This document shows positions 16,002-21,718 of a stretch of DNA of 64,000 bases, in pieces (positions within the stretch are counted from its first letter, which is position 1; each line of letters begins with the position of its first letter). A program made the translations under genes and the position numbers. The notes under the pieces are model-generated. The model was not told where the DNA came from, searched no databases, and saw nothing but the letters and a program-made list of their open reading frames with translations. Source of the stretch: Arthrobacter sp. Hiyo8 (lineage in GTDB: Bacteria > Actinomycetota > Actinomycetes > Actinomycetales > Micrococcaceae); contig AP014720.1 in assembly GCA_001549895.1 (NCBI GenBank), forward strand, positions 248,001-312,000, given 5' to 3'.

Positions 16002-16769
16002 GTGAATCCCGGACTTATTGAGGACTGGACATTGGTCGGACGTGATTTGGACCTGCTTGGCCAGAAGCCCGGCCCTACACGGCTGGGCTTCGCCTTGTTG
16101 CTGAAGTTCTTCGAGATCGAGGCGAGATTCCCGAGTGGGCCAGATGAATTCGATCCCGCGGCGGTGGCCTATGTTTCTGAGCAGGTCGGAGTTCCGGCGG
16201 AAGGCCTTGGTTCGTATATGTGGACGGGGCGGACAATCGAGCGTCATCGCTCCGATATCCGATCAGTGTTTGGTTTCCGGGAGTTCACCTCCGCTGATGA
16301 GGCCGGCTGGCGGGCTGGTTGGCGGAGAGGGTGTGTCCGTCGGAGGTTCGTGAGTCTGCGCTTGTGCAGGCTTTGCTGGCACGGTGCCGTCAGGAGCGGA
16401 TTGAGCCGCCGGGGCGTGTGGGCAGGATTGTTGGTGCTGGCCGGGCGTTGTTTGAGCAGCGCCTATGTGCTGATGTCGTCAAGGTTTTGGGGCAGGACGG
16501 TGCTGCTGGCCTGGAAGCTCTCGTCGCTGACGGTGCAGCGGGTTCTCTGTTGTCGGTGTTGAAAGCTGATCCGGGCCCGGCTGGTTTGGAATCGTTGCTG
16601 GCAGAAGTGGAGAAGCTTTCAGCGGCCCAGGGCCTGGATCTTCCTTCTGGTTTGTTCGTCGGGGTGTCGGAGAAGGTCGTGAGCGCGTGGCGGGCCAGGG
16701 CGGCGCGGATGTATCCATCGGATTTCCAGGAAGCGCCGCGCCCAGTGCGGTTGACGCTCTTGGCGGCGT
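16002..16769 (+). pseudogene. tnpA: Tn3-family transposase, 5' fragment
   Basis: The first ~255 residues of a Tn3-family transposase. It begins with the DUF4158-type segment (D-W-T-L-V, then T-R-L-G-F-A-L-L-L-K-F-F-E-I) and continues, after one added base near 16310, with L-A-E-R-V-C-P-S-E-V-R-E and R-A-A-R-M-Y-P-S-D-F. It ends at L-L-A-A-L-N where the IS3-family element starts. The 3' part resumes at 20271. Full-length relatives have roughly 200 more residues between these two points, so this copy is interrupted and internally deleted. Confidence 0.85.
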
Positions 16770-16793
16770 TGAATCGCACCGGGTTTGATGGAG
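16770..16793 (+). repeat. IS3 left inverted repeat
   Basis: Matches the reverse complement of 20247-20270 at 19 of 24 positions, beginning with TG as IS3 ends do. The last 15 bases are identical. Confidence 0.8.
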
Positions 16794-16821
16794 ACATCGA
16801 TTACCCGGAAGGATGATTCCC

Positions 16822-17119
16822 ATGTCAGCACAACGGAAGTACCCGGTCGAGTTGCGTGAGCGCGCGACGCGGATGGCGATAGAGGCAAGGATGGACCCGT
16901 CGACCAGGACGGGCGCGTACCGCCGGATCGGAGAGCAACTCGGGGTCAATCCTGAAGCGCTGCGGACCTGGGTGAGCCGGGCCGAGATCGACGAGGGCTG
17001 CGGCCCGGGACCACGAGCGATGACGCGGTCAGGCTCGCCGAGCTCGAGCGTGAGGTCCGTGAGCTGCGGCGGGCGAACACGATCCTTCGCCAGTCGGCGG
17101 TTTTCTTCGCGGCGGAGCT
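16822..17119 (+). CDS. IS3 orfA, upstream exon (group II intron interrupts it), one frameshift
   Basis: The helix-turn-helix subunit of the IS3 transposase. It starts at ATG 16822 (M-S-A-Q-R-K-Y); an in-frame ATG is at 16813. The N-terminus has the usual R-A-T-R-M-A and L-G-V-N-P-E-A-L-R-T-W-V recognition helix. After one missing C near 16984 it continues into the leucine zipper A-E-L-E-R-E-V-R-E-L-R-R-A-N and F-F-A-A-E-L. The intron begins inside the Leu codon. Joined to 19321-19339 the protein ends D-R-P-S-R, the normal orfA terminus. Confidence 0.82.
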
Positions 17120-17727
17120 GTGCGCCACGAGGCGCTGTGTGTGTCGAGGGGCGGTGAGAGACCGTCCTGGTTGGGTCGTCGCAGCGGCCTGATTGAGCTG
17201 GGGGCAGCCTGATCCGGGGAACGCCGGTGAGGGTGGCAAGCGGCCCCGACAAAGGCGAGACGTGCCGGGACTACCAGACGGTGCGGGTTCGTCGAGCAAG
17301 GTCAGAAGGTACAACGTGAGTGAACTGGTGTTTGACGCCCTGTAACCGCGAAGCCGTGCTCAAATCTGGTGGATATGGGCCGGTATGCAGCGCACTGGAT
17401 GCCATGCGTGGCGTCTGGACTCCGAAGCCGTTTAGTTCTGCCGGTGGGGAGGCCATGGTGAAGGCCTGCGGCGTAGCCGTGGCGATGCTGCCGGGGTAGA
17501 GCCGGGTGCCTCCCTGACTGATCGATGACGCAGTGAACGTGGGAACCATTTCGTGGTTCCCCAACCGGTAGGTAGCCAGCGTTCCGGTTGGGGTAGGTCC
17601 GTTGCCGACCGAAGACCACAAGGTGGGGCGGAGGCCTCGTAGTAGTCGCGGGAGTAACGACCCGCCATTGGGGACCGGGAAAGCCGGTCACAGGGCGAAG
17701 GGGCCAGCAAGTTAGCAGGTTGAGTGA

Positions 17728-19257: not shown

Positions 19258-19335
19258 GGGAAGCGGTCCGGGGAAACGGGCCGGCCGTAAGGCTGGCACC
19301 GCGCCCGGGCCGACTTTCACCGACCGCCCGTCGAG

Positions 19336-20240
19336 GTGATCTGCGCCTTCATCGAGGAGCACCGTGACGAGCACGGGGTCGAGCCGATCTGCCGCGAACT
19401 GCAGGTCGCCCCAAGCACGTACTACGCCCACCGCACCCGCCCCGCCTCGGCACGCAGCCTCCAGGACGCGGAGCTCACCGAGGCAATCCGGCGGATCCAC
19501 GAGGAAAACTACGGGGTCTACGGGGCTCGGAAGGTCCACGCCGAGTTGCGGCGGCAGGGCCGGCAGATGGCCCGCTGCACCGTGGAAAGGCTCATGCGGG
19601 CGGCGGGTTTGCGTGGGGTGTCGCGGGCGAAGGGGCCACGGACCACGAAGCCGGCGCCGGAAACTGGCAGACCCGCGGACCTGGTCGAACGCCGGTTCAC
19701 GGCGACGTCGCCGGACCGGCTCTGGGTCGCCGACATAACGTACGTCAGGACCTTCGCCGGCTGGGTCTACGCCGCGTTCGTCATCGACGTGTTCTCCCGC
19801 AGGGTCGTCGGCTGGCAGGTGGCCACGAGCCTCTACACCGACCTGGCTCTGGACGCCCTGGAGATGGGCATCTGGACCCGGACCAGGGACGGTGCTGATC
19901 TGGACGGGCTGGTCCACCACAGCGACCGCGGAGTCCAATATCGCTCGATTCGCTACACGCAACGGCTTGAGGAAGCCGATGCGGTGGCCTCCGTTGGTTC
20001 CAAGGGGATTCCTATGACAATGCCCTCGCGGAGGCGTTCAACTCGCTGTTCAAGGCAGAGCTTGTGCGCAACAAGGGCCCGTGGAAGGACATCAGCCAGC
20101 TTGAGGTCGCTGTCGCGGAGTACATCGATTGGTTCAATCACCGTCGCTTGCACGGCGAGATCGGACACGTCCCACCCGCCGAATATGAACATCTCCACGC
20201 CGGGCACACGGCACCGGAACTACTGACAATTTCCAACTAA
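19336..20240 (+). CDS. IS3 orfB transposase (DDE), one frameshift
   Basis: The catalytic subunit of the IS3 transposase. GTG 19336 overlaps the repaired orfA stop (19337-19339), as expected for programmed frameshifting. It has the HTH_21-like region [12 protein letters not shown] and the rve integrase core with [11 protein letters not shown] (first D) and H-H-S-D-R-G-V-Q-Y (second D). After one missing G near 20008 the end reads [14 protein letters not shown] (catalytic E) and W-F-N-H-R-R-L-H. It ends at TAA 20238-20240. Confidence 0.88.
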
Positions 20241-20246
20241 AAACGG

Positions 20247-20270
20247 CTCCATCAAACCCGGGGCTTGACA
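20247..20270 (-). repeat. IS3 right inverted repeat
   Basis: The partner of 16770-16793. It lies seven bases after the orfB stop, and Tn3 transposase sequence resumes directly after it. Confidence 0.8.
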
Positions 20271-21718
20271 ATGAGGAGGTCACTGGATCATCTGGATAAC
20301 GGGCTGCTGGCCGATTCCACCGGCGGGGTGAAGATCACCAGACGCCGAGGGGCGCCGTGGATAAAGGTGCCCAAGCTGGAAAAACTCGAAGAGCCAACGA
20401 ACCTGGGCAAACTCAAGGACGAGGTCCTGGCACGGTGGGGCACCCTGGACTTGCTTGAAGTCCTCAAAGAGGCGGACTTCCTGACCGGGTTCACCGGGGA
20501 ATTCGTTTCAGTGGCCTCCCGTGAGGTTCTTGACCGTGAGACCCTTCGCAGGCGGTTGTTGCTCTGCCTGTTCGGACTTGGGACAAACATGGGCATCAAA
20601 GCCGTCACGGATGCCGGCGGCCACGGAGAGAACGAACGGGAGCTGCGCCACGTGCGCCGGACATTCATTACGAAGGACAACCTGCGCCAAGCGATCGTGA
20701 AAGTCGTCAACGCGACGTTCGAGGCCAGGAACCCTGACTGGTGGGGCGAAGGGAACGCGTGTGCGTCCGATTCGAAGAAGTTCGGCTCCTGGGAATCGAA
20801 CCTCATGACCGAATGGCACAACCGGTACGGCGGTCCCGGAGTGATGATCTACTGGCACGTGGAGAAAAAATCGACCTGCATCTATTCCCAGCTGAAGAAC
20901 TGTTCCTCCTCCGAGGTTGCGGCGATGATCGAAGGCGTCCTGCGCCATGACACCGAGGCCGAGATCGAAGCGAACTACGTTGACACGCACGGCGCCTCGA
21001 TCGTGGGGTTCGCGTTCACCGAACTCCTGGGCTTCAAGCTGCTGCCGAGGTTGAAGAACATCGGATCGATCCGGCTTTACCGGGCCGGCAATGAAGAGGT
21101 CTACGGGGAGATCAACCCGGTGCTGTCCAGGCCGATCAACTGGGACATCATCGCCCAGCAATATGACCAGATGGTCAAATACGCCACCGCCCTCAAACTC
21201 GGTACCGCCGAATCAGAGACGATCCTGCGCCGCTTCACCCGGGCGGTCCGAAACACCCCACCTACCAGGCGTTGGAAGAACTCGGCAGAGTCGTGCGGAC
21301 AATCTTCGCCGCCGACTACCTCGCCAACGAAGACCTTCGACGCGAAATCAATTCAGGGCTGCAGGTGGTGGAGAACTGGAACAGCGGAAACGACGTTGTC
21401 TTCTATGGGAAGAACCGGGATCTCACGGGTCCGGACCGTGAAACGACCGAGGTGTCCATGCTCGCCCTGCACCTGCTCCAATCCTCGCTGGTCCTGGTCA
21501 ACACCTTGATGCTGCAAACCGTGCTCGAGGTCCCGGAGTTCAACGAACTCCTCGAACCGGAAGACCGCAGGGGCCTCACACCGTTGTTCTGGACCCATAT
21601 CAATCCTTACGGACGCTTCACCCTCGACATGACGACCCACCTGAACCTGGGCGGGGGACAAGATGAAGGAAGCCTTCCGGCTTCCGTACTGTCCCTGAAA
21701 GAGCAGATCCTGGTATGA
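20271..21718 (+). pseudogene. tnpA: Tn3-family transposase, 3' fragment, one frameshift
   Basis: The C-terminal ~480 residues of the Tn3 transposase, including the DDE domain: [25 protein letters not shown] (first D), Y-V-D-T-H-G (second D), and L-L-P-R-L-K-N-I. One added base near 21258 joins it to [25 protein letters not shown] and I-N-P-Y-G-R-F. It resumes in the correct direction after the IS3 element but lacks the protein's middle. I could not identify Tn3 terminal repeats in the flanks. Confidence 0.87.

Follow-up and report, generated by a model that had tools for sequence, protein, structure and literature searches.

The window considered here is a stretch of 64,000 nucleotides of Arthrobacter sp. 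Hiyo8 (contig 2, positions 248001-312000, of a 5.03-Mb genome), in which a group II intron lies within an insertion sequence (IS) of the IS3 family that itself lies within the remains of a Tn3-family transposase gene. A preliminary description of this DNA had proposed these three nested mobile elements, and the nest was confirmed. We hold, with a probability of about 80%, that a group II intron from an actinobacterial lineage entered the IS3 element by retrohoming, at nucleotides that serve programmed -1 frameshifting. The argument is carried by computed results: exact boundaries, co-variation of the intron's exon-binding site 1 (EBS1) with intron-binding site 1 (IBS1) of its target, recurrence of one site, movement of the intron between divergent IS3 elements and co-variation of the RNA helix that the intron splits.

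The intron is 2201 bp in length (17120-19320, forward strand). It begins with GTGCG at 17120 and ends with ACTTTCAC (...TTTCAC) at 19320, and thus fits the end consensus of mobile group II introns (5' GUGYG, 3' AY). Its reverse transcriptase (RT) scored 119 bits with RVT_1 and 76 bits with GIIM of Pfam and 368 bits with TIGR04416 (cut-off 300), and the Pfam search reported no endonuclease domain. By sequence the closest solved structure is 6me0 (210.7 bits). An anti-phage RT was considered and excluded: the PADLOC generic RT model gave 215 bits, which is expected for any group II RT, and the NCBIfam group II RT model exceeded its cut-off whereas the Drt and retron models fell below theirs. The intron is perhaps of class G[g1], an intron-encoded protein type reported for Actinobacteriota in the accessible text of PMC8919778, a guess based solely on the phylum of the host. 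A single intron copy was found in the genome, and the closest named matches to the intron and to the Tn3 gene are on Arthrobacter plasmids.

An intronless IS3 element from another genome of the family (L077, genome G580), 75-77% identical to the window IS3, served as the reference for the boundaries. Its positions 1150-1500 align with 16770-17119 of the window and its positions 1501-2459 with 19321-20270. As the alignment runs through the IS ends and the intron junction, these three boundaries are exact. Hence the limits given in the preliminary description proved exact both for the intron (17120-19320; L077 is uninterrupted at GGAGCT/CGACC) and for the IS3 element (16770-20270), the latter with TG...CA ends and an inverted repeat of 18 nt that is 94% complementary. 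That description had also named, as its refutation test, a search for relatives with an empty site; such sites were found in L077 and in four more loci, L073, L074, L083 and L087 (the retrieved loci were scanned on one strand only, and the sites in L066, L070, L072 and L076 were without IS3 context). Its statement that removal of the intron restores orfA holds for the junction and for the end of orfA (DRPSR, stop) but not for the frame break farther upstream, which persists. The RT, IS3 orfB and Tn3 family scores were far above noise (orfB gave 241 bits with NF033516, cut-off 160), and the orfA score was marginal (PF01527, 24.0 bits for the open reading frame (ORF) 16813-17157, just under the cut-off of 24.1). 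The 3' part of the window IS3 gave one copy in the Hiyo8 genome (40/69 candidates scored) and matches in 75 of 197 genomes of the family. Intron matches were present in 16 of these 197, with only one of full length besides the window's own (G418, L105, 91%). Across the phylum the occupied-site pattern was found in 2/396 genomes, the window's own and G046, and a loose empty-site pattern matched 70/396.

The site of insertion falls within the frameshift signal of the IS3 element. This signal includes an apical loop-internal loop (ALIL) pseudoknot in IS3411 and in 27 or more further IS elements (PMC5009743, citing Mazauric 2008, in the part of the text available). In this pseudoknot the apical loop of stem 1 pairs with an internal loop in stem-loop 2, which lies downstream. 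The window signal has the same architecture but, unlike the IS3411 type, has an apical loop split by the intron. The L077 RNA has the loop AGCUCGA on the stem GGCGG/CCGCC, and in the window the intron separates AGCU from CGA; the insertion point AGCT/CGA is 14 nt after the in-frame U_UUC slip site. An in-frame U_UUC or U_UUU was present 11-14 nt upstream of the junction at 25/25 sites (20 occupied, 5 empty), and the accessible text of PMC4066793 places U_UU.C second among the Z_ZZ.N motifs with an IS3 pseudoknot in E. coli. At all 18 occupied sites the orfA tail after the split codon consists of 5-7 codons followed by a stop. Both IS3 ORFs are open at 11 of the 18 (orfA with no fewer than 98 codons upstream of the junction and an orfB-frame run of at least 271 aa), as expected if such IS elements can still work.

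The Rfam ALIL model RF01497 (cut-off 50 bits) recognized the empty loci L077 (96.4 bits), L073 (76.2), L087 (68.2), L083 (67.1) and L074 (50.5). No match at cut-off was obtained in six occupied loci (L058, L010, L045, L003, L006 and L105), as expected if the intron breaks the ALIL. The interrupted window gave 59.9 bits at 19300-19413, a match excluded as an independent intact ALIL because it begins with 21 bases of the intron. When folded as a single sequence the L077 signal gave no ALIL fold as such; in the minimum-energy structure the loop is paired with its partner as part of a single long helix (z -2.4). Co-variation was clear across the junction, where 141 of 147 positions of the kissing helix pair over 21 sites (16 occupied, 5 empty). 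In 2000 re-deals the mean was 130.4 and the maximum 139, and none reached the observed value. The combinations were GCT/CGAC with GTCGAGC (9 sites), GCT/GGAC with GTCCAGC (5 sites) and GAT/CGAC with GTCGATC (1 site), plus variants with a wobble or one mismatch at 5 sites.

Recognition of the target by base pairing was supported by the same approach. Among 43 introns, 87% of the positions between EBS1 and the final six bases of the exon are paired, the next-best alignment column giving 55%. When the exons were shuffled among the introns 1000 times, a control done for EBS1 only, the mean was 49% and the maximum 60%. The EBS2/IBS2 assignment comes from exon bases -15 to -11, which pair with a second intron position at 90% in 44 introns (next off-diagonal value 69%). 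In introns at other targets EBS1 fits those targets, for example TTCGAT versus ATCGAG. Two introns of Ca. Mycobacterium methanotrophicum (L046 and L051) that are related to the IS3-site lineage are located at AACGCCGGTCAA junctions, and the L051 EBS1, TTGACC, fits its own target, which looks like retargeting. The sister introns L016-L020, L047 and L048 have another junction in common, ...TGGAACAAG(A/G)T(C/A)GA(G/A), which we take to be IS630-like.

The IS3 site has been occupied repeatedly. A contig scan seeded with the window RT gave 56 loci, and the 5' junction, placed by blastn in 44 of these, was at the IS3 site in 15. After addition of plasmid and family loci, both junctions were placed at 18 IS3-site loci, the window included, and two further loci (L012 and L043) were assigned by their 5' junctions only. 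(L009 is a second locus with the junction of L007 on the same contig; the L011 3' junction was moved back one base by hand, and for L033 and L015 the label came from the 3' flank alone.) The RT tree (61 sequences, with L009, L052, L053 and all RTs under 330 aa excluded) contained a clade of 22 rows (support 92/82) composed of 20 of the 21 IS3-site rows together with L094 and L051. The IS3-site label requires 4 changes on this tree versus a mean of 17.6 upon shuffling, and 0/500 shuffles gave so low a value. Intron identity exceeded mean exon identity in 103/105 pairs, and by more than 15 points in 81 (15/18 loci; L009, L011 and L092 were left out). With gaps counted, shuffled 3' exons gave 51% with a maximum of 53%; a first calculation with a shuffled baseline of 74% was dropped. 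In Streptomyces sp. I6 the introns of L010 and L045 are 100% identical, whereas their IS3 elements are 62% (5' exon) and 65% (3' exon) identical. Likewise, the window intron and the intron of Arthrobacter sp. YA7-1 (L058) share 96% identity, against 60% and 57% for the exons. As the introns are more alike than the IS3 elements that host them, the intron has moved between IS3 types at one site.

Some IS3-site introns themselves contain introns. In Virgisporangium (L036, about 1784-6137) the IS3-site intron, which starts at 1784, holds a second group II intron that starts at 2846, has its 3' end near 5002 and apparently lies within the outer RT gene, giving an intron in an intron in an IS; the RT of the inner intron represented this locus in the tree. 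In L033 (Amycolatopsis) the 5' end of a second intron is within the IS3-site intron (568 and 1058).

The outer level of the nest is a damaged gene. The 5' remnant of the Tn3-family transposase covers residues 7-102 and 104-262 of NF033527 (117-262 in one search) and the 3' remnant begins at 498 or 505 (505-830 and 836-953); hence the stretch from 263 to about 497-504 is missing. The pieces score under the whole-protein cut-off of 500 bits because the gene is broken. Intact tnpA references were found in Arthrobacter sp. Rue61a plasmid p232 (L124, 988 aa) and Arthrobacter sp. FW306-05-C (L125), the DNA identity to L124 being 88.7% for 16269-16771 and 92.9% for 20270-21655. Relative to these references the left piece stops at 3265 and the right piece starts at 4000, a loss of about 735 bp. 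As the alignment to the window runs up to 16771 and resumes at 20270, the loss falls exactly at the IS3 element. The L077 IS3 is flanked by CAC/CAC, a 3-bp duplication, whereas the window IS3 has no 3-bp target duplication (cgt/atg), which fits a deletion beside the IS. Given the loss and the lack of a duplication, the IS3 element marks a deletion, and the missing 735 bp or so rules out a clean insertion into Tn3. Thus, the preliminary description was right that two parts of a transposase gene flank the IS3 element, but its picture of an insertion that simply splits the gene fails on the missing DNA and on two frame breaks. Its claim of a base-exact reconstruction of every level stands for the intron and the IS3 element and not for Tn3, where sequence is gone, the frame is broken and no duplication is present.

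IS3 elements can bring about adjacent deletions, and IS copies can recombine with one another. We lean towards one of these two processes as the origin of the Tn3/IS3 boundary, rather than insertion plus an unrelated deletion, since the loss ends right at the IS3 end and no duplication is present. A look for short repeats around the L124 tnpA gave one 11-bp match. Broken pieces of Tn3 transposase genes are abundant on contig 2, which has 15 of the 16 genome matches (61928-104238, 200091-200582 and 264017-269625), as on a plasmid-like, transposon-rich replicon.

The order of events put forward in the preliminary description, Tn3 then IS3 then intron, survives in part. Tn3 is older than the landing of IS3 in it, and the IS3 lineage is older than the landing of the intron in IS3. 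However, the full order is not forced because related units of IS plus intron occupy unrelated loci: those of L003 and L010 have the same ends and are 94% identical over 3530 columns, and no other similarity between the two loci was detected at 1e-20. This pattern fits travel of IS and intron as a unit, so the intron may have preceded the arrival of the IS3 element in Tn3. We judge it close to an even bet, falling slightly short, that the intron entered IS3 first and that IS3 plus intron then entered the Tn3 gene. The presence of one type of unit at the unrelated loci L003 and L010 and the 11/18 occupied sites with both IS3 ORFs still open argue for this course. Against it, the closest introns seen (L058, 96%, and L105, 91%) occupy other IS3 types, 54-60% identical to the window IS3, no target duplication was seen at L003 or L010 and no sister copy of the window's exact IS3-intron unit was found.

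Several results weigh against retrohoming of one lineage to the frameshift signal. The IS3-site label does not define a single clade: L043 (a partial RT) falls outside the clade of 22 rows, L094, whose flank is IS3-like on the 5' side only, and L051, which has another target, fall inside it and the IS3-site group formed one side of a branch in 0/200 bootstrap trees. Many rows are related and the counts are not independent. At one of the 21 sites, L007, the kissing partner is missing at the aligned place (2/7), an unaligned 7/8 match being present elsewhere. Stem 1 is weaker than the kissing helix, with 86/105 pairs and 3/2000 re-deals as high, and as counted it hardly pairs at L006 (0/5) and L093 (1/5). 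In the window IS3 copy both orfA and orfB are broken. As orfA is open for only 54 codons upstream of the junction (105 in L077) and the orfB frame breaks late compared with L077, this IS3 copy is probably dead, while the intron ORF stays open. Finally, target recognition by sequence alone would explain the site, with no need for a role of RNA structure.

This last point leads to a serious contender against which we nevertheless set the odds, namely that the site was chosen only for its conserved coding sequence (FFAAELDRP) and that the overlap with the pseudoknot is a by-product without consequence for IS3. EBS/IBS pairing by itself accounts for targeting, and sister introns are found at other junctions such as ...TGGAACAAGATCGAG/ACCGG, for which we know of no recoding signal. 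What speaks against a by-product is that the intron lies in one strand of a helix whose two strands co-vary and that the stretch from slip site to loop is closely alike in IS3 elements that are otherwise divergent. Both explanations, conserved coding sequence and frameshift signal, can hold together.

In the mechanism that we favour, retrohoming to the frameshift signal, the intron RNA would find its target through EBS2/IBS2 and EBS1/IBS1 pairing over a stretch of about 15 bases that begins at the end of the slip codon and reaches the ALIL apical loop, and would insert within the loop AGCT/CGA just upstream of the orfA stop codon. With the intron in place the loop is cut and some 2.2 kb separate its 5' half from the kissing partner, so that the pseudoknot cannot form as in an intronless IS3. 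Splicing would rebuild the loop, the end of orfA and the orfA/orfB overlap. Splicing itself, retrohoming as the route of entry and dependence of the transposase on splicing are steps that we infer. A more far-reaching proposal, which we put forward only tentatively, is that an actinobacterial intron lineage has specialized on the IS3 frameshift signal and that it throttles IS3 transposition while the unit of IS plus intron still travels. The homing site would be common to many IS elements because the frameshift signal is constant across divergent IS3 elements, and OrfAB synthesis would be conditional on splicing because the intron splits the pseudoknot. It seems doubtful that the whole nest is a dead relic in which the intron no longer splices or moves: the frame breaks in orfA, orfB and (twice) Tn3 and the single intron copy in the genome favour it, but the RT ORF has its full length and contains YADD, EBS1 and IBS1 pair at 6/6 positions, domains V and VI exceed the Rfam cut-off and the 96% identity to the L058 intron suggests fairly recent movement.

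Table 1 Features of the nested elements in window coordinates
Feature	Position	Strand	Remarks
Tn3-family transposase, 5' remnant	16002-16769	+	Frame break near 16301; Pfam DUF4158
IS3-family element	16770-20270	+	3501 bp including the intron; ends TG...CA; ends match those of intronless L077
Left terminal inverted repeat of IS3	16770-16793	+	
IS3 orfA 5' exon (HTH_Tnp_1)	16813-17119	+	Frame broken near 17000
U_UUC slip tetramer	17102-17105	+	In-frame; IS3 -1 frameshift signal
ALIL stem 1, 5' strand (GGCGG)	17111-17115	+	From the RF01497 alignment of L077
IBS1 (GGAGCT)	17114-17119	+	AGCT, at its 3' end, forms the 5' half of the ALIL apical loop
EBS1 (AGTTCT)	17434-17439	+	Pairs 6/6 with IBS1, two G-U
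RT/maturase ORF of the intron	17728-19239	+	503 aa, YADD present
Intron domains V and VI	19222-19320	+	Rfam RF00029, 49.6 bits (cut-off 40)
Candidate branch A	19313	+	8 nt before the intron 3' end; putative branch point
CGA (3' half of ALIL loop) and CCGCC (stem 1, 3' strand)	19321-19328	+	
IS3 orfB (HTH_21, rve integrase core)	19336-20226	+	-1 frame relative to orfA; frame break near 20005
GTCGAGC	19378-19384	+	Kissing partner of the split loop GCT/CGAC
Right terminal inverted repeat of IS3	20247-20270	-	
Tn3-family transposase, 3' remnant	20271-21718	+	Frame break near 21251; DDE_Tnp_Tn3, 287 and 108.7 bits

Elsewhere in the window, genes for an ABC-2 permease and an ABC transporter ATPase, the latter DrrA-like in its C-terminal domain, lie upstream of the nest (13081-15190), and a YhcG/DUF1016 nuclease gene is located at 28639-29691.

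Group II introns that home to IS elements are already known, including one aimed at IS3. In the accessible portions of the papers cited here, E.c.I4 of E. coli and Shigella retrohomes to specific positions in IS629, IS911, ISEc16 and ISEc31 (PMC3522654), and a stem-loop stimulates frameshifting in IS911 (as cited in PMC5009743). Like the window intron, E.c.I4 is aimed at several IS3-family elements, although in other bacteria. Four enterobacterial plasmid introns that we examined had no IS3-annotated neighbour, a result without bearing on the E.c.I4 site. RmInt1 resembles the window intron in having no endonuclease domain and a fixed site in an IS, ISRm2011-2, and its poor splicing has been proposed to restrain the host IS (PMC4238363, PMC5894124). 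It differs in that the host IS belongs to the IS630 family and the bacterium is Sinorhizobium, and the available text of these two papers does not mention a recoding signal. What appears new here is a predicted recoding signal as the target, split at its kissing loop. Among the titles listed in searches of open-licence literature, a coverage outside which most subscription journals fall, none was recognized as linking an intron to the IS3 frameshift signal.

If the transposase depends on splicing, then one retroelement would control another at the level of decoding. The finding also suggests a possible rule, that introns settle where nucleotides stay constant across hosts under a constraint beyond that on the protein.

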